From a virus: a stretch of 35,076 nucleotides of DNA. Below, piece after piece: positions 728 to 34,379 of this stretch (the stretch's first letter is position 1; every line of letters begins with the position of its first letter). The position numbers were made by a program, and so were the translations under genes. The notes beneath the pieces are model-generated. The model made no database searches. It was given only the letters and a program-made list of their open reading frames with translations, and had not been told where the DNA came from. The DNA lies in IMG/VR virus record IMGVR_UViG_3300046459_000067, positions 1-35,076 of that record; one strand, written 5' to 3'.

Positions 728-3232
728 TTATGCGAACGCGTACGGCGACTGCTTGATCAACTGCAGGTCCAGGGTGCCCTTCGCGGGGAGGCCTAGCTTA
801 CCGAGGTCCTTCATGCTCTTCTGCAGCTTCGTCATGACAGCAGCGTCCTCGCACGTCGAGACCAGTTCCATCATGTCATCGACCGCATTCGTCAGCACGC
901 CCTCGAGCGGCTCGTTGTCTTCGTACATCTCAACGAACGCTTCGCGGATCATGCGATTGAACTTGGGCATCTGATTAGGCAAGGCCGCGAACGAGTCGTG
1001 GATCAGCAGGAAGTCGTTGATGCCATTGTCGACGCACTTGAGCACGCTGAGGCCCAAATGCGCACCATCGAGCGAATGCACGAAGTTCGGGGCGCACGAA
1101 TTTCTGCACTTGTGCTCCAAAAGCTCCTTGGTGTAGCCCATGACAATCTGCGGGTCATAGCGCACCGGGACGTTGACATCACGGCTCCACAGGGTCATCT
1201 TCAGGCGCTTGACGTTCGGCTTGTAGTACGCGTTCTCCACCGGGAGGCCGAGGGGGGTGACCCATCGCATCGGGATGTTGTGACGCGCCAGGATGCCTGC
1301 GACCTTCTGCAGCCATTCCATCGCATCAGCAGCGGCCTTCACGGTCTCCTTCACAGCCGCCATGATGTGCGCAGCCAGGTAGTGCGCAGCCGGTACTTGC
1401 TCTGCCCACTCGGTGCCGAAGATCTCGCGGCCTTTACCTTCAACGTCGATGATGTCCTCGACCAGCTGGTCCGCGAAGCCTTTTTGCTTGCTCCCGTACA
1501 CGAACGTCATAACGGCACGCTTGCAGACCTTGCGGTCGATGCCGTAGTCGATCCACTTCTGCGCCCACTGGGCCTTCTCCGGGTCCATCAGATCAGCCTG
1601 GACCAGCGGCAGCACGATGGTCGATGCCTTGCGGTAGACGTCCTGCGGGAGTTCCGAGGGCAGCAGGTTCACATAGCTGCCACCTTCCGGGTCACGGAGG
1701 AGGGCAGAGAAGTGCTGCAGGCCCGAGCACGAACCGTCGACGGCGACCGGGATGTGACACACGTAGCCTTCGGGATCCTTCATGTAGCCGTCGAGCGCCA
1801 GGCACGCGGCCAGGTAGCAGAACGGGCTGTCAGCGCCTTGCCACAGGGGCAGTGCAGCCAGAGGGTCTTCAGCGATAGCGCGGACGGTCGACAGGTTCTC
1901 GTCAGTCCACTGCACGCGACGGTCGTGAGAGGCCTTGTCCATGGCGAGACCATCCACTTTGAACGCGCCAGTCGTGGCCACGTGCCACTTGAGCCAGTAG
2001 ACGCCGTCCTCGTTCAACACCTCGCCTCGGGCCAGTTCATACAGCCCCTTCGCGAAGTCCGCTCTCTGATGATTTAGACCCGGACGCGCATAAACGCGAC
2101 CACGCCAATCGTCCGTATGCGGCTGCCATAGCGGAGCGCCAACATACTGCTTGGCTTCAGCGATGGCCGACCGGATTGCGTTGCGCTTGGCGCGGATGGC
2201 CGCGTTGTCCTTGCGCATCTTGACGGCCTTCTTCGGCTCCTCGTCCTTGGCGATCTCGAGCGGCTTGCCCGGGACCTTGCCGACAGCGATGCCCGACACG
2301 AAGCAGTGCTCGAGAACCTCGAGAACCTTCGCATTGAGCATCAGGGGCACGTCCTGGACAGCATTCAGGGCACGGACGAACGGGGCGTTAGCTTTCGCGG
2401 CCTCGTCGATCAGCTTGCGGACCTTCTTGTTAGGCGTGGACACAAGCGGGACCGTCTTGGCGACCCGTTGGTCATTGTAGGCACCAGTGTCGAGGGCGGT
2501 CCAAGGGTTCGGACGCGTAACCATGGGCTGGTAGACCGGGTGCATGAACTGCTGAATCTCAGTCATGTTGTCCATCTCGGTCTGCGCGGCCTCGGTGAAC
2601 TTCAGGGTCGTGCCACCAGTGAACTCATCGCCTTCAACCGTATGGAACATGTCCATCGCGGGCAGGGCAATGTTGATTAGGTTCAGGCCAACCTTGATGA
2701 ACTCGTCGGGCGTGCGCTCTTCGCCAGCAGCCTCGAGCAGGTCGACCCCTTTCTTCTCGCCAGAGCGGGCCGAGGTGACCTTGCGACCGACCAGCTTCTG
2801 CAGTTCGGCCTTGGCTCCCTTGTCCTTCTCGGCCTTGGCTTGCTCCGCGAGCTTCAAGCTGGCCATCTCGGCCTCGACCTCGAAACCGATGGTGTGCGCC
2901 ATGTCCGTGACCGTGCGGTCGATGGCCGCGCCGTTGAACAGGGTACGCAGGGTGATCGCCGTGAGAAGCTCATGGTCGACCATCGCCAGCACAGCAGCGT
3001 GAGCCGCAGGGCGACCACGGCCCTTGGCAGCAACCTCGGCAGCAGCCGTAGCGAACGCCACGACAGCCTTCTGGAAGGCCGAGGAGAACAGCTTGTTCTG
3101 GTTGCGAGCGATGTCCCCTGCATACAGGGCACGTTCGTTGTTGTCGGCGTAGCGTTGGGCACCACGCTCGATCATCGACGCTTCGAGATCAGCCTGGCGG
3201 GCGTAGTTCAGATCGAGATCAGTAAGGTTCAT
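728..3232 (-). CDS. Single-subunit DNA-dependent RNA polymerase (T7/SP6 type)
   Basis: An 834-residue polymerase, full length (T7 has 883). Motif A is VAVDGSCSGLQHFSA with catalytic Asp499. Motif B is DRKVCKRAVMTFVYGSK with Arg567, Lys571 and Tyr579. NFVHSLDGAH is at 716-725 and the second catalytic Asp746 is in IHDSF. The C-terminus SPYAFA matches the conserved FAFA-type foot. The promoter-specificity loop should fall around residues 676-708 and differs from T7, as do the promoters. The ATG at 3232 has GGAG 7-8 nt upstream. A sigma-70-like promoter (3266-3294) and a variant phage promoter (3320-3343) precede it, suggesting early host transcription followed by self-activation. A terminator follows directly. 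Confidence 0.97.
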   Translation of the reverse strand: MNLTDLDLNYARQADLEASMIERGAQRYADNNERALYAGDIARNQNKLFSSAFQKAVVAFATAAAEVAAKGRGRPAAHAAVLAMVDHELLTAITLRTLFNGAAIDRTVTDMAHTIGFEVEAEMASLKLAEQAKAEKDKGAKAELQKLVGRKVTSARSGEKKGVDLLEAAGEERTPDEFIKVGLNLINIALPAMDMFHTVEGDEFTGGTTLKFTEAAQTEMDNMTEIQQFMHPVYQPMVTRPNPWTALDTGAYNDQRVAKTVPLVSTPNKKVRKLIDEAAKANAPFVRALNAVQDVPLMLNAKVLEVLEHCFVSGIAVGKVPGKPLEIAKDEEPKKAVKMRKDNAAIRAKRNAIRSAIAEAKQYVGAPLWQPHTDDWRGRVYARPGLNHQRADFAKGLYELARGEVLNEDGVYWLKWHVATTGAFKVDGLAMDKASHDRRVQWTDENLSTVRAIAEDPLAALPLWQGADSPFCYLAACLALDGYMKDPEGYVCHIPVAVDGSCSGLQHFSALLRDPEGGSYVNLLPSELPQDVYRKASTIVLPLVQADLMDPEKAQWAQKWIDYGIDRKVCKRAVMTFVYGSKQKGFADQLVEDIIDVEGKGREIFGTEWAEQVPAAHYLAAHIMAAVKETVKAAADAMEWLQKVAGILARHNIPMRWVTPLGLPVENAYYKPNVKRLKMTLWSRDVNVPVRYDPQIVMGYTKELLEHKCRNSCAPNFVHSLDGAHLGLSVLKCVDNGINDFLLIHDSFAALPNQMPKFNRMIREAFVEMYEDNEPLEGVLTNAVDDMMELVSTCEDAAVMTKLQKSMKDLGKLGLPAKGTLDLQLIKQSPYAFA

Positions 3233-29620: not shown

Positions 29621-29705
29621 CCGTGTCTAGCCAACCCTTACGCTCACTGGCCCTAGGAAGCTTCGAGCGGTCGTCACATGCGAACTTGAGGAGGGCACAT
29701 GTGTC
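29596..29705 (-). ncRNA. Candidate small RNA (about 110 nt)
   Basis: An orphan sigma-70-like promoter (29712-29740) and a terminator (29591-29620) enclose about 110 bp without a gene. Near its 5' end the RNA can form CACATG-loop-CATGTG, whose 17-nt loop exposes CCCUCCUC, complementary to Shine-Dalgarno sequences. A UUCG-capped terminator closes the 3' end. This is the usual layout of a base-pairing regulatory RNA. No homologue recognised; expression is a prediction. Confidence 0.45.
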
Positions 29706-29711
29706 GCTCTC

Positions 29712-29740
29712 ATTATAGCCAGGATAGCGCCCGCAGTGAA
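29712..29740 (-). promoter_or_regulatory. Orphan sigma-70-like promoter
   Basis: Leftward: -35 TTCACT (29735-29740), 17-bp spacer, perfect -10 TATAAT (29712-29717). No gene lies downstream in this direction before the terminator at 29591-29620. The stronger bidirectional terminator just upstream isolates it. Confidence 0.6.
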
Positions 29741-29790
29741 AAAATACCCCCTCGGGAACCCATTACGGGAACCTTGAGGGGGTCTTTTTC
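29738..29790. terminator. Strong bidirectional terminator between late and plasmid-type regions
   Basis: ACCCCCTC (29746-29753) pairs with GAGGGGGT (29776-29783), followed by CTTTTTC on the plus strand and by ATTTTTTC on the minus strand. It stops the rightward late transcript and the leftward transcript of the lipoprotein/Rep side. Confidence 0.85.
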
Positions 29791-29794
29791 GACT

Positions 29795-30022
29795 TCAATT
29801 GTTGACGAGTGTGGCTCCGCAGGTGGTCGCGCAGAGCTTCAGGGACGAGTTGCACTGGAGCTTCTGGATCCCTGGGGTCAGAGGATTGGACGACAGGCAT
29901 TCGTTGTAGGCGTCCGAGCAGTGCATGGAGCACGAGCGGTCGGCGTAGCGCCAGTCGAAGTCAGGGGTCGCACAGGCCGAAAGGGACAGGGCTGTGGATA
30001 AGGTAGCGATGAGCATCTTCAT
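29795..30022 (-). CDS. Small lipoprotein, Cys-rich (75 aa)
   Basis: Starts MKMLIATLSTALSLSACATP: a signal peptide with lipobox LSAC, so Cys17 would be lipidated. The mature part has six more cysteines in a spaced pattern (CSMHCSDAYNEC, LQC, LCATTC), likely disulfide-bonded outside the inner membrane. No clear ribosome site. A DnaA box lies inside the signal-peptide codons and another just before the ATG. Possible roles are superinfection exclusion or entry exclusion (inference). Confidence 0.7.
   Translation of the reverse strand: MKMLIATLSTALSLSACATPDFDWRYADRSCSMHCSDAYNECLSSNPLTPGIQKLQCNSSLKLCATTCGATLVNN
29993..30001 (-). promoter_or_regulatory. DnaA box 1 (perfect)
   Basis: TTATCCACA on the minus strand, an exact match to the consensus TTATNCACA. 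It lies inside the lipoprotein gene. Confidence 0.75.
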
Positions 30023-30031
30023 TGTGGATAA
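30023..30031 (-). promoter_or_regulatory. DnaA box 2 (perfect)
   Basis: A second exact TTATCCACA, 30 bp from the first and in the same orientation, hence on the same helix face. It directly borders an AT-rich stretch. Confidence 0.75.
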
Positions 30032-30069
30032 CTTTTCTCTATTGTTAAGGTAAACATCTTTCTCGTTAG
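30032..30069. other. AT-rich stretch, possible DNA-unwinding element
   Basis: About 38 bp of AT-rich, T-rich DNA (ACTTTTCTCTATTGTTAAGG at the start) in an otherwise GC-rich genome, flanked by DnaA boxes on one side and iterons on the other. This is where an iteron-type origin would melt. Confidence 0.55.
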
Positions 30070-30173
30070 GGTGTCTTGGGTGACACCTATTCCCGGTGAA
30101 TTGGTGCCTTGGAAGACACCTATTAATTAGTGACAGGTCGCACCCCTGATACGTGTCACCGATGACACCTATT
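30070..30173. repeat. Three 22-bp iterons (plus one degenerate copy) at a predicted plasmid origin
   Basis: Copies start at 30070, 30103 and 30152. Each ends in GACACCTATT and begins with GGTGTC, GGTGCC or CGTGTC, six bases before the GACACC arm, so each is also an imperfect palindrome. A weaker fourth copy (about half the bases) fits at 30129. The last copy overlaps the stop codon of the Rep-like gene. They are likely Rep binding sites. Confidence 0.75.
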
Positions 30174-30741
30174 TCAACTTGTCCCGCAGCTTCTCCCGAA
30201 TCGCCGGGTCCAGTTTGTCCATATTCTCCAGCAGGCTCTGCATGTTGAACTGCGCGGAGTGGTCGTTGAACACGTTCACTGTCAGGTTCTCGATGCTGAT
30301 TATCTTGGCCCCCGCGAAGTCCCCGGTCATCATCACGTGCTTCAGTTCTGCCACAGCATTCTTCACACCATCCGGAACGTAGTCCCACGTAGCGGCAGCT
30401 ACGGGCCTCCCCTGGTCATCCGAGATCCCCACGCGCTCCCGCAGTGTGTAGACGTTGTTCCGCCCTTTCTTCTCTCTGGTGATGTACCCCATGTCCTCCA
30501 GGGTCTTCAGTTCCCTGAGCACCTGGCTCTTGGACAGCCCTGTCTTCGTCATGAGGACGTCGATTCCCGGCCACGCCTTGCCTGTCTTGAAGTTGGTATG
30601 AGACTTAATGGAGCAGTAAGTGAGGAAGGCGTTTCCGCCCATCTTCGCGGCGTCCCCGTTCTCGAGCATCGCCCGGAACAGGTGGAACCACACAGTCTCA
30701 GCCGCGAACATGTCCGCCTGCTGCGGTTCCGGCGCGTTCAT
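30169..30741 (-). CDS. Winged-helix Rep-like plasmid replication/regulatory protein (190 aa)
   Basis: Residues 15-110 form a winged helix: ETVWFHLFRAMLENGDAAKM, then TGKAWPGIDVLMTKTGLSKSQVLRELKTLEDMGYITREKKGRNNVYTL. The C-terminal part (TWDYVPDGVKNAVAELKHVMMTGD) is one I recall from helix-turn-helix proteins on proteobacterial plasmids. Its 3' end abuts iterons, an AT-rich tract and DnaA boxes, so replication initiation is the best guess; a transcriptional regulator of the par operon is the alternative. The ATG overlaps the stop of the RHH gene (ATGA). Confidence 0.7.
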   Translation of the reverse strand: MNAPEPQQADMFAAETVWFHLFRAMLENGDAAKMGGNAFLTYCSIKSHTNFKTGKAWPGIDVLMTKTGLSKSQVLRELKTLEDMGYITREKKGRNNVYTLRERVGISDDQGRPVAAATWDYVPDGVKNAVAELKHVMMTGDFAGAKIISIENLTVNVFNDHSAQFNMQSLLENMDKLDPAIREKLRDKLK

Positions 30742-31085
30742 AGGAAGCCCTCCTCCTCTGCCTTGGCGATCTCCGCGTCCAGGGCTGCCTCTAGGACATC
30801 AGCCACGAACCCCTTGCCGCTCTTGATGCGCCCGAGGCTCTTCAGTGTGTTTAGCTTCGTCCGGATCCGCATGGGGACCTCGAAGTTTACCTTGATCACC
30901 TCGTCCTGCCCCTCCCACGTGCGGCGGCGGATAGCTTCCTTCCTTGCTTCCCTCGAAGTTTCCTTCGTTCCTTCAAAGGAAGGTTCCTTGGTTCCTTGGT
31001 TACTTCCTTCTTTCCTTGGTTCTAGGGCCGCTGGCGCGGCTCCTCCTTTCTGCACCACGGCCCCCAAGGAGATCGACTTAGACAT
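30738..31085 (-). CDS. RHH partition-type DNA-binding protein, ParG-like (115 aa)
   Basis: Residues 1-55 are disordered, charged and repetitive (SNQGTKEPSFEGTKETS). Residues 62-110 look like a ribbon-helix-helix: a short strand (IKVNFEVP) then two helices (MRIRTKLNTLKSLGR, SGKGFVADVLEAALDAEI). A flexible basic tail plus RHH, encoded right after a small ParA and overlapping it by 8 nt, is the arrangement of type Ib partition systems, where this protein binds the centromere and stimulates ParA. The DNA of its disordered tail contains centromere-like repeats. Confidence 0.7.
   Translation of the reverse strand: MSKSISLGAVVQKGGAAPAALEPRKEGSNQGTKEPSFEGTKETSREARKEAIRRRTWEGQDEVIKVNFEVPMRIRTKLNTLKSLGRIKSGKGFVADVLEAALDAEIAKAEEEGFL
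30967..31019. repeat. TTCCTTGG array inside the ParG-like gene
   Basis: Copies of TTCCTTGG at 30984, 30992 and 31012 and a TTCCTT-CA-AAGGAA inverted repeat at 30968-30981. The 13-mer CTTGGTTCCTTGG (30987-30999) is also present exactly upstream of parA (31783-31795). Candidate partition site or operator located in coding sequence. Confidence 0.5.
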
Positions 31086-31722
31086 GTGCCTTCTCCCGCT
31101 TGGGTGGGGCGATGAACTGGCTCACGACGAAGTCCGCCACTTGGTCAATAACGATGGCCCCGGTGCCCTTGTTGTGCTCCTTAAAGACGCCGCCTGGGAT
31201 CATGGCCATCCAGTAGCCATTGAGCTTCGGTACGTTGTGGGGGATCACAGGACCCATAGCGGCTAGATTGCGGGTTGCGTCGAGCGCTACGGCCTTCCCG
31301 TTCGTCTCGTTGAGCAGGAAGAAGAAAGGCTTTCCGAGGCCCTTACACATAGCGACCGTAGTCTTCGCCGCGCGTATGTCATGCGGAGAGTGCTTCACAG
31401 GGATGATGACCATGTCGGCCAGTTTTATGGCCTCCTCGTTGATCGCGTGGTCCTGCGGAGGGGTGTCGACTACACACCACGCGTACCCGGCGCTTGCAAG
31501 CTCTGCGTGTTTCCTGGGGAGGTGTGCCACGTCTTCGACCAATGCAAACGCAGGGGTCTCCTTGGTCCTGTCGTTCCACCATGCCGAGAGGGACCCTTGG
31601 GGGTCTAGGTCCATAGTCACTACGGGGCCGTGCCCCAGGTCCTCTAGAGCACACGCGAAGTGCGCCGAGTGCGTGGTCTTTCCGCTGCCGCCCTTCAGGC
31701 ACGAATACACGATGGTCCTCAT
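31078..31722 (-). CDS. parA: ParA-type partition ATPase (214 aa)
   Basis: Deviant Walker A KGGSGKTT at 10-17 with signature Lys10, Walker A' DLDPQGSLSAW at 38-48, Walker B VVDTPP at 84-89. No N-terminal DNA-binding domain, so it belongs with small (type Ib) ParA proteins. These ATPases ride the nucleoid to distribute low-copy plasmids. GGAG precedes the ATG at 31722; the upstream in-frame extension covers a repeat array and is not used. It forms an operon with the RHH and Rep-like genes. Confidence 0.88.
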   Translation of the reverse strand: MRTIVYSCLKGGSGKTTHSAHFACALEDLGHGPVVTMDLDPQGSLSAWWNDRTKETPAFALVEDVAHLPRKHAELASAGYAWCVVDTPPQDHAINEEAIKLADMVIIPVKHSPHDIRAAKTTVAMCKGLGKPFFFLLNETNGKAVALDATRNLAAMGPVIPHNVPKLNGYWMAMIPGGVFKEHNKGTGAIVIDQVADFVVSQFIAPPKREKAHV

Positions 31723-31729
31723 TCTGGCT

Positions 31730-31795
31730 CCAAGGTAGGAAGGAACGAATGAAAGAATAAAGGAAACTTCCAAGGAAGGAAACTTGGTTCCTTGG
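31730..31795. repeat. Partition-site-like repeats upstream of parA
   Basis: Direct repeat AGGAAACTT (31761-31769 and 31778-31786), CCAAGGAA (31770-31777), CTTGGTTCCTTGG (31783-31795) and CCAAGG (31730-31735). They lie between the parA start and the upstream terminator, where type Ib systems keep their centromere/operator. Confidence 0.55.
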
Positions 31796-31801
31796 TAGAC
31801 C

Positions 31802-31822
31802 AAAGCCCCGACAGAGCGGGGC
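31802..31822 (-). terminator. Terminator/attenuator after the RHH-like gene
   Basis: Leftward: GCCCCG, 6-nt loop, CGGGGC, TTTGG. The T run is short, so it may only partly block transcription toward parA. Confidence 0.5.
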
Positions 31823-31827
31823 ACTGA

Positions 31828-32184
31828 TCACTTCGCCTTGGTGAACCTATCGATCACCGCATCGGCCATCTCGTTTGCCGCACGGTCCAGAAACACCTGC
31901 ATCGACTTCATCCCACCCACGTTCTCAACGATCCACTTGACCTTGAGGTACAACTCCGGTTCCATCTTGAAGTTGTACCCCATGCGCGGCTGCGCTTGGA
32001 TTATGTCTGGGTTTTCCCAAGGGAAGCGGGCCGACTTGGTCGCCTCCTCGCGGGCTAACTCCTGCAATCGGGCGATCTCCGCTTGTGCCGCCCTCAACTG
32101 CTCCTCAACACTCATCGCCGCTTTGTCTGCTGCCTTTGAAGCTACCTTAGCAGGAGCTACACTCTTGCCCGATACTGCGTTCAT
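31828..32184 (-). CDS. Coiled-coil plus RHH-like DNA-binding protein (118 aa)
   Basis: Starts MNAVSGKSVAPAKVASKAAD with GAGG upstream. Residues 26-48 form a short coiled coil (VEEQLRAAQAEIARLQELAR). Residues 65-115 (MGYNFKMEPELYLKVKWIVENVGGMKSMQVFLDRAANEM) look like a strand-helix-helix module of the RHH type. It has its own promoter at 32219-32247 and precedes the parA region. It may be a second partition or copy-control regulator, or an autorepressor. Confidence 0.62.
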   Translation of the reverse strand: MNAVSGKSVAPAKVASKAADKAAMSVEEQLRAAQAEIARLQELAREEATKSARFPWENPDIIQAQPRMGYNFKMEPELYLKVKWIVENVGGMKSMQVFLDRAANEMADAVIDRFTKAK

Positions 32185-32586: not shown

Positions 32587-33396
32587 TTACCGCACAGCCG
32601 CCAGCAGGTCCTCGTCCGAGATGTGGGCGTAGCGCATCGTCGTCTGTATCTTACGGTGTCCGAGGAGCTTCTGGACTACCGCGATGTTCCCAGTCCTCGA
32701 CAGCGTCCGGGTTGCGGCGGTATGTCGCAGGGCGTGAAGGACGAAGTCGTCGTCCCCCTCGAGGCCCATAGCCACCTTCAGGCGCAGCCATACAGCCCGC
32801 AGTTTCCCCTCGTCCAGGGCGAAGGGCAGCCCCTGGGCAATCGCATCCTGAGCACGGACGCTGAGGGGCACCGAGCGGGGCTTCTTCGTCTTGTTGACCC
32901 ACAGCCGAACCCACGGTCCATCCACGTTCTTCGCCTCGAGCTTCAGGATCTCCGAGCGGCGCATTCCGGTGTCGATGGAGACCGTAAGGAACCTAGCGAC
33001 CTCGGCCTCTCCCCAGGTGTCCAAGAGGGCGAACATCTGAATTTCTTCGACTTCTGTCAACCAGCGGGTGCGTCCCTCCGTTTCTTCCTTCCATTCGAAC
33101 TTCGGCATCTTGGCGAGCCACTCGCGCTCGAAGCCGTACTTGAGGACCGTGTGGATGTTGGCCAGCTTGCGGTTGACCGTGGCGTCCGCGATGGTCCCTT
33201 GGACCTCCAGGATGAAGTCGTCGATGGTCGTCGTCCGGACGTCCTCGAGGGCCAGGTTGCCGACCACCTTGATGAACTGCTCGACGTTGCGGTAAGCGGT
33301 GAGTTCGTAGGCCTTGCCGCGCCACAGGGCCTTGGCGGCGATCCGAAGGAGTTCGTGGAGGTTCTTGGGAGCTTGTACCGGCTTGGTGGTCTTCAT
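32587..33396 (-). CDS. Tyrosine recombinase / integrase (269 aa)
   Basis: Full catalytic set of PF00589: Arg146 in DTGMRRSEIL, Lys near 171 in NKTKKPRSVPL, HALRH with His221 and Arg224, His247 in LLGHRKIQTTMRYAHI and nucleophile Tyr256. N-terminal residues 10-100 form the SAM-like core-binding domain. AAAGGAG precedes the ATG at 33396. It has a good promoter at 33519-33547. On a plasmid-type element it may resolve multimers (as Cre does for P1) or integrate the genome; no attachment site could be identified by eye. Confidence 0.92.
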   Translation of the reverse strand: MKTTKPVQAPKNLHELLRIAAKALWRGKAYELTAYRNVEQFIKVVGNLALEDVRTTTIDDFILEVQGTIADATVNRKLANIHTVLKYGFEREWLAKMPKFEWKEETEGRTRWLTEVEEIQMFALLDTWGEAEVARFLTVSIDTGMRRSEILKLEAKNVDGPWVRLWVNKTKKPRSVPLSVRAQDAIAQGLPFALDEGKLRAVWLRLKVAMGLEGDDDFVLHALRHTAATRTLSRTGNIAVVQKLLGHRKIQTTMRYAHISDEDLLAAVR

Positions 33397-33607: not shown

Positions 33608-33664
33608 TCAGTTGAACAGGATCCAGAGGACGAGGAAGAGGAGGAGGGTTTCGCCGAAGGTCAT
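33608..33664 (-). CDS. Hydrophobic microprotein (18 aa)
   Basis: Frame MTFGETLLLFLVLWILFN, whose ATG overlaps the stop of the larger gene upstream (ATGA), as all other genes of this operon do. It is essentially one membrane helix. The stop is about 20 bp before the operon terminator, so it fills the remaining space. Very short, so translation is a prediction. Confidence 0.45.
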   Translation of the reverse strand: MTFGETLLLFLVLWILFN

Positions 33665-34173
33665 TCGTACACCACCGCGTCGATGCCATAGTCACAGCCA
33701 TCGTAGATGTAGCCACCACAGCCCCCTACGACCACCGAGGGTCCCCACCAGGCGAACGGGTCGTAGTAATAGACGCTACCACCGAGCAGGAGGATTGCGA
33801 GGATGACCACGGCGATGAAGATCAGCACGTCAGCGCCCGAAGACTGGGCCATTCCACTCGAGGTCACGTAGACCGGAGCGGGGGCCACGTAGGGAACCAT
33901 GGGAGCAGCGACGATCACCGGGGGCCTCGCGACGATCACAGGGCGCGGGGTGTAGATCGGGACCACGGGACGCGCAATGATCACAGGGCGCGGAGCGATG
34001 TAGACAGGGCGTGGGGCCACGTAGACGCGGGCCATCGGGGCCGAGCGGAAGCCACCACCGTAGTAGGCTGCGTTGGCGCTGGTCGTCGAGAACAGGCCGA
34101 TGAAGGTGATGATCGCGAGGAAGCCCAGGAAGAGGGCTGCGTACGGCTTGTGGAACTTGGGTGCAGGGATCAT
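33661..34173 (-). CDS. Membrane protein with Pro/Val repeats (170 aa)
   Basis: Starts MIPAPKFHKPYAALFLGF with AAGGA before the ATG. Residues 10-35 are a signal or membrane helix ending SANAAYY. Residues 48-100 are a repeat of APRPVYI/ARPVVP/TPRPVIV units. Residues 118-138 are a second strong membrane helix (DVLIFIAVVILAILLLGG), followed by an aromatic/Gly tail (YYYDPFAWWGP). The repeat could span the periplasm. No family recognised; superinfection exclusion or envelope binding are possible. Confidence 0.65.
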   Translation of the reverse strand: MIPAPKFHKPYAALFLGFLAIITFIGLFSTTSANAAYYGGGFRSAPMARVYVAPRPVYIAPRPVIIARPVVPIYTPRPVIVARPPVIVAAPMVPYVAPAPVYVTSSGMAQSSGADVLIFIAVVILAILLLGGSVYYYDPFAWWGPSVVVGGCGGYIYDGCDYGIDAVVYE

Positions 34174-34379
34174 GCGAAAGTCCTTGTATTCAGCTTGGTC
34201 ACCCAGAAGCCGTCGGCGTTCTTCGCCATACCCTGGGCATTCATTTGCATCGGTGTGAGGCAGCGGCGGGGGTTCTCTTCGTTCCCGAAGTCCCCACGGC
34301 GATGCTTCTCGAAGGCCACGGTCGAGTTGAAGAACTCGGCGCAGCGCGGGCACTGGTTGCGGTCGCCGGTGAGCTTCAT
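34170..34379 (-). CDS. Zinc-finger-like conserved phage protein (69 aa)
   Basis: Starts MKLTGDRNQCPRCAEFFNST. A CPRC pair, the H in FEKHRRGDF and C in RRCLTP form a likely Cys2-His-Cys zinc site. The end, MAKNADGFWVTKLN, completes a pattern I recall from many phages, where it is unnamed. ATGA overlaps join it to both neighbours. Likely nucleic-acid- or protein-binding. Confidence 0.75.
   Translation of the reverse strand: MKLTGDRNQCPRCAEFFNSTVAFEKHRRGDFGNEENPRRCLTPMQMNAQGMAKNADGFWVTKLNTRTFA

Follow-up and report, generated by a model that had tools for sequence, protein, structure and literature searches.

What is a DNA segment with the parts of a plasmid replication origin doing in a phage that encodes a T7-type RNA polymerase? 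The sequence analysed, hereafter the window, spans 35,076 bases and is a linear virus record from IMG/VR. It is a fragment from a soil phage, and also encodes a terminase, a portal, a scaffold, a major head protein and an endolysin. On its minus strand, from ~33.4 kb down to 29.8 kb, lie a tyrosine recombinase gene, a small ORF, parA, an ORF for a ribbon-helix-helix-like (RHH) protein, rep, an array of repeats, and a lipoprotein-like gene (Table 1). Terminase, portal, capsid and RNA polymerase genes are found together with ParA and Rep genes, which is the gene content of a phage-plasmid. T7-like and N4-like phages are for the most part considered lytic. One paper on temperate members of the T7-like group describes phages that integrate (PMC10134795), and the eight well-defined phage-plasmid groups in a recent review are sipho- or myophages (PMC11652158).

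Table 1. Positions of the origin elements, neighboring genes and backbone marker in the window
Feature	Position	Strand	Remarks
T7-type single-subunit RNA polymerase	728..3232	-	Full-length; PF00940, 5.8e-96; phrog_414, 8.4e-197; marks phage backbone
Lipoprotein-like gene	29795..30022	-	75 aa; downstream of origin; absent from some relatives
DnaA box 2	29993..30001	-	TTATCCACA, exact; inside lipoprotein coding sequence
DnaA box 1	30023..30031	-	TTATCCACA, exact; immediately before lipoprotein start codon
AT-rich tract	30032..30071	-	Candidate unwinding element; bounded by CCCTAAC (minus strand, 30065-30071)
Iteron 1	30070..30091	+	GGTGTC-N6-GACACC; half-sites perfect, 0/12 mismatches
Iteron 2	30103..30124	+	GGTGCC-N6-GACACC; 1/12 mismatch
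Iteron 3	30152..30173	+	CGTGTC-N6-GACACC; 1/12 mismatch; covers rep stop codon (30169-30171)
rep	30169..30741	-	190-aa winged-helix initiator candidate; recognition helix GLSKSQVLRELKTL; Pfam HTH_36, E=1e-11
RHH-like protein gene	30738..31085	-	115 aa; candidate centromere-binding partner of ParA, from sequence pattern only
AAGGAA/CCAAGGAACC repeat cluster	30936..31018		Inside RHH gene; candidate partition site
parA	31078..31722	-	Small ParA-type partition ATPase; Pfam AAA_31, 6e-13; PHROG ParA-like, 1.1e-28
CCAAGGAACC/TTCCTT repeats	31737..31796		Upstream of parA; candidate operator/centromere
Small conserved ORF	31828..32184	-	Between recombinase gene and parA
Tyrosine recombinase	32587..33396	-	Integrase or multimer resolvase; Pfam PF00589, 5.7e-21; NCBIfam XerC, 3.6e-22, under cut-off

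An earlier note on this DNA, made from the letters alone, had proposed an iteron origin with DnaA boxes next to a Rep-like gene, and the elements that it listed are present. The two perfect TTATCCACA boxes lie 30 bp apart, start to start, and are the only exact copies in the window, where a first-order model of the window predicts 0.099 copies per 35 kb and, for pairs no more than 60 bp apart, 1.7e-5. The tract beside them, called AT-rich in the note, contains the window's most AT-rich 40-mers (72.5% AT, starting at 30015-30029), and carries TTAACAATA at 30040-30048. The three 22-bp repeats that follow all contain GACACCTATT exactly, as claimed (0.027 expected under the same model), and the last one does overlap the rep stop codon, a TAG on the minus strand. 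Sites that match GGTGTC-N6-GACACC with one mismatch or fewer number three, versus 0.15 expected per window, and no second array of such sites occurs elsewhere in the window. A chance origin of the repeats was considered and rejected, because these counts are far above first-order expectation. The repeats had been described as imperfect palindromes; they are inverted repeats, one with a perfect pair of half-sites and two that deviate at a single position. DnaA box 2 also serves as Leu-Ser-Thr codons in the signal sequence of the lipoprotein. Beyond the lipoprotein-like gene, at 29747-29789, a GC-rich inverted repeat with a run of Ts after it (CCCCCTCGGGAACCC...GGGAACCTTGAGGGGG) is a probable terminator, and similar copies are located 3' of the array in loci L007 and L010.

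The rep product matches a PHROG family of replication initiation proteins (E=1.7e-13), as well as O-like and DnaD-like families. Its AlphaFold model has a confident winged helix-turn-helix (wHTH) and a C-terminal part of low confidence, such that the winged helix alone is reliable. A PDB search retrieved no specific initiator, and the best profile and fold matches were generic winged helices. The Rep_3 (PF01051) N-terminal domain was matched neither in the window, nor in the phage relatives searched, nor in the two related plasmids described below. A search of the RPA family with Rep was negative, RP-C (RepC, PF03428) was reached at E=0.077, which misses the cut-off, with a further RP-C search also negative, and the window Rep did not match the IncFII RepA family. 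Given the PHROG initiator matches and the lack of Rep_3, RPA or RP-C membership, we term Rep an initiator that presumably works like the Rep proteins of iteron plasmids but lies outside those families.

Two scans of viral contigs with Rep produced 21 distinct contigs, and the loci of the first scan recurred in the second. A scan of a genome collection with Rep returned just two distant wHTH fragments from Clostridia, and a DNA-level search of annotated phages with positions 29700-31900 gave 0 matches. The same unit of rep and array recurs in ~12 distinct loci of phages, and one phage-plasmid of Acinetobacter and one plasmid of Polaromonas also carry it. The phage comparison comprised 13 rows with 12 non-identical or near-identical Reps, which share 53-99% identity with that of the window. 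All phage relatives examined have three or four palindromic sites per array adjoining rep, and all 13 rows have a perfect DnaA box ~260 bp or less from the rep stop codon. This box, equivalent to box 1, is the sole perfect box in each locus of 8-12 kb, or one of two adjacent ones; box 2 is common only to the window's closest relatives. The CCCTAAC motif is kept in 12 of the 13 rows. An AT-rich tract separates sites and box in most relatives, and is not the locus maximum in all of them. The distances from site to site are likewise conserved (33 and 49 bp in the window; 27, 49 and 33 bp in L006/L012; 26, 48 and 32 bp in L013/L016). The orientation of the parts can change: the entire cassette of L043 is flipped with respect to rep, and that of L018 is flipped in its AT tract and repeats, with the DnaA box still on the far side. 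The gene 3' of the array differs from relative to relative.

The recognition helix of Rep and the half-site of the repeats correspond one to one: KSQVLR is found with GGTGTC, KAQVHR with GGTCTC, TRQVMR with GGTGAC, and KRQIIN with GGTGCA. The Acinetobacter helix, RATVLR, pairs with GGTATC, and the remote Polaromonas plasmid has DDTVRL with CCCTTA. The L018 Rep shares 77% identity with the GGTCTC group and 63% with the window Rep, yet it has the KSQVLR helix and GGTGTC repeats. The L044 Rep, at 53% identity to the window Rep, is nearer to the GGTCTC group (63-66%), and both its helix and its repeats are of that group's type. Because half-site and helix change together, Rep is likely to bind GGTGTC-type repeats. 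This indirect evidence is strong but not conclusive, since the deep forks of the Rep tree are weakly supported and the independent switches of helix and half-site are few.

The module is carried by several kinds of phages. It occurs on T7-like phages with the window's capsid family (the window, G002, G003, G006, G009 and G010), on phages with a T7-type RNA polymerase and a different capsid (G012 and G014), on N4-like phages (G011, G016, G018 and pRBH2-3), and on contigs with no detected RNA polymerase (G005, G015 and G017). The T7-type relatives encode their own RNA and DNA polymerases, and G002, which is near-identical to the window, has a family A DNA polymerase. G011 and G016 are circular assemblies of 75 and 77 kb with an exact 127-bp end overlap, an N4-type RNA polymerase and the module; a tyrosine or serine recombinase was not matched in either. 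Circularity alone is no proof of a plasmid, because terminally repeated phage genomes also assemble as circles. The contig-end overlaps of L053/L054 (G003) and L067/L068 (G018) are inexact, at 83% and 91% identity, perhaps reflecting mixed strains at the circular join.

Two plasmids carry relatives of the module. In the complete 75-kb plasmid pRBH2-3 from A. baumannii, ParA is followed by a small gene and a relative of Rep, and palindromic sites overlap the end of rep. A 16.5-kb stretch of it aligns over 94% of its length, at 98.2% identity, with the Schitoviridae phage vB_IME_Ab2712. The Acinetobacter array has no adjoining perfect DnaA box, the nearest being ~1.2 kb off. The gene order recurs on the 104-kb Polaromonas plasmid pA29BJ2, together with three palindromic repeats and two perfect DnaA boxes; neither phage structural genes nor a further replication gene is annotated on it, in a gene table that is known to be incomplete. 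A portal search against plasmids gave just remote matches on very large Sinorhizobium replicons, and a literature search for pRBH2-3, Ab2712 and pA29BJ2 found no paper. These occurrences suggest that module-bearing viruses can also persist in the cell as plasmids, with a complete plasmid record only for pRBH2-3, a distant relative. The T7-type relatives bring a DNA polymerase of their own, so this plasmid-type origin probably serves maintenance and not lytic growth. The window phage has a tyrosine recombinase, and so might integrate instead. That gene adjoins the plasmid module and is nearest to the XerC type, and its product may resolve multimers instead of acting as an integrase. Comparison of its flanks did not reveal a clear recombination site, and the window contains no tRNA genes; thus, a tRNA-type attachment site is not suggested. 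Farther on, a 230-aa ORF (33661-34353) has a weak match to PXPV repeats, which is unusual in a phage.

The genes that precede rep resemble a partition system with repeats of its own. ParA matches the NCBIfam ParA_partition model at 2.1e-31, under the curated cut-off. The RHH gene product has no family match and no PDB match. Its linker is encoded by AAGGAA repeats, with nine copies within 200 bp where simulation gave three at most, and the resulting AAGGAA/CCAAGGAACC array resembles a centromere built into coding sequence. A double array of CCAAGGAACC type, upstream of parA and inside the RHH gene, accompanies this ParA type in L010, L011, L012, L017, L043 and L044, and is not found in L006, L007 or L013. 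In L010, the variant repeat CAAGAAA is present in both places.

We consider it highly probable that replication of a phage-plasmid starts at this segment, in a replicon of the order ParA–RHH–Rep–ori that resides on T7-like, N4-like and other backbones. The origin proposed in the earlier note is thus upheld insofar as the unit is conserved on phages and plasmids and its repeats co-vary with the Rep helix. Its description as a textbook iteron layout is not: the repeats are inverted-repeat sites, they lie downstream of rep (which, on the minus strand, reads toward them), and a single DnaA box is the general state in relatives. In the mechanism that we envisage, Rep, probably as a dimer, would bind the three palindromic repeats found where its gene ends, and host DnaA would bind the TTATCCACA box across the AT-rich tract from them. 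Together, the two proteins would open the tract and load the host replisome, such that the segment should replicate autonomously. The phage genome would then be kept as a low-copy plasmid and segregated by ParA and the RHH protein via the separate CCAAGGAACC repeats, and lytic growth would run on the phage's own T7-like polymerases.

Other functions for the repeats can be weighed against the same observations. They might form a centromere, with the wHTH protein as a TubR- or AspA-like centromere binder that acts with ParA, and no origin at the site. Rep weakly resembles TubR and AspA in profile and fold, and rep follows parA in an operon-like order. However, the profile match (E=5e-4) covers only positions 42-103, and the fold matches (E ~0.007-0.02) stand among many to generic wHTH proteins, as expected if the similarity is that of any winged helix. 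Next to the repeats, DnaA boxes and an AT-rich tract are conserved. Moreover, the unit of rep and array is retained in L006, L007, L013 and L015 with an unrelated or only remotely similar ParA, whereas L044 and L043 retain ParA (74% and 72% identity) with different half-sites. Because ParA and RHH genes are swapped independently of the repeats and have CCAAGGAACC repeats of their own, the GGTGTC repeats are probably not the centromere, and we regard this explanation as unlikely. It is less likely still that the palindromes are operators of the wHTH protein acting as a lysogeny repressor, an arrangement that might be expected from temperate T7-like phages such as LUZ100, in which a MarR-like regulator adjoins the integrase (PMC10134795). 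The array lies after rep, and the variable gene beyond it means that there is no constant target promoter for a repressor. The DnaA box would also be left unexplained. We give this possibility almost no weight.

An origin could also serve lytic replication of the phage instead of a plasmid state, with Rep functioning like lambda O. The O-like and DnaD-like PHROG matches of Rep fit this proposal, since such initiators serve lytic growth in many phages. But the polymerases encoded by G002 and the T7-type relatives argue against it, as do the inclusion of partition genes in the module and its presence on pA29BJ2, which lacks annotated phage structural genes. Deletion of repA in phage Miko was reported to leave plaque formation intact and to destabilise lysogens (PMC7157519). 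We regard a purely lytic role as unlikely. Finally, the array is downstream of rep, as is incA in P1, and might be an element for incompatibility or copy control, with the true origin located elsewhere. This is very improbable, given that the window has no other array of such sites and that this one has the DnaA box and AT-rich tract expected of an origin itself.

The origin of a phage-plasmid replicon thus remains our favored explanation. On balance, we also favor the view that it represents a previously unnamed replicon family, characterised by a small initiator with a single winged helix, by palindromic repeats at the end of the initiator gene that it binds, and by a recognition helix that predicts the repeat. 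Such a family would be traded among T7-like phages, N4-like phages and plasmids, and would make phage-plasmids of lineages that are generally considered lytic. If so, a plasmid replicon common to podophage lineages would widen the known range of phage-plasmids, and its small origin could be used as a vector. The natural pairs of helix and repeat offer a ready test of how initiators and repeats change together, and hence of plasmid incompatibility.

The textbook iteron origins of P1, F and pSC101 have direct repeats upstream of rep. Like P1 oriR, F oriS and pSC101, the window segment joins rep, short repeated Rep sites, an AT-rich tract and DnaA boxes, with low-copy partition genes nearby. Unlike in Rep_3 iteron plasmids, its repeats are palindromic and downstream of rep, and its 190-aa Rep is not a Rep_3 protein. 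In IncFII/R1 plasmids, oriR lies downstream of rep and has a DnaA box, an AT-rich tract and palindromic Rep sites. The window is nearer to IncFII/R1 than to P1 or F in the order of rep and origin, the palindromic sites, the AT tract and the DnaA box. It differs from IncFII/R1 in that the phage ParA and RHH genes precede rep, IncFII RepA is not matched, and the array is inverted relative to rep in L018 and L043. As in repABC replicons, a partition ATPase, a DNA-binding partner and an initiator are encoded in one operon in that order, but RP-C is not matched at threshold, ParA is small, and the origin follows the initiator gene instead of lying inside it. Among mycobacteriophages, extrachromosomal prophages with parABS also have a Rep-type initiator beside partition genes, where it serves plasmid maintenance; their RepA is a different protein, of 320-350 aa, their presumed origin region showed no repeated motifs, and their backbone is another one (PMC7157519). 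The window shares with vB_IME_Ab2712/pRBH2-3 and pA29BJ2 the ParA–small gene–wHTH order and palindromic repeats beside rep; these relatives have Reps that are 35-38% identical to the window's and half-sites, GGTATC and CCCTTA, of their own.
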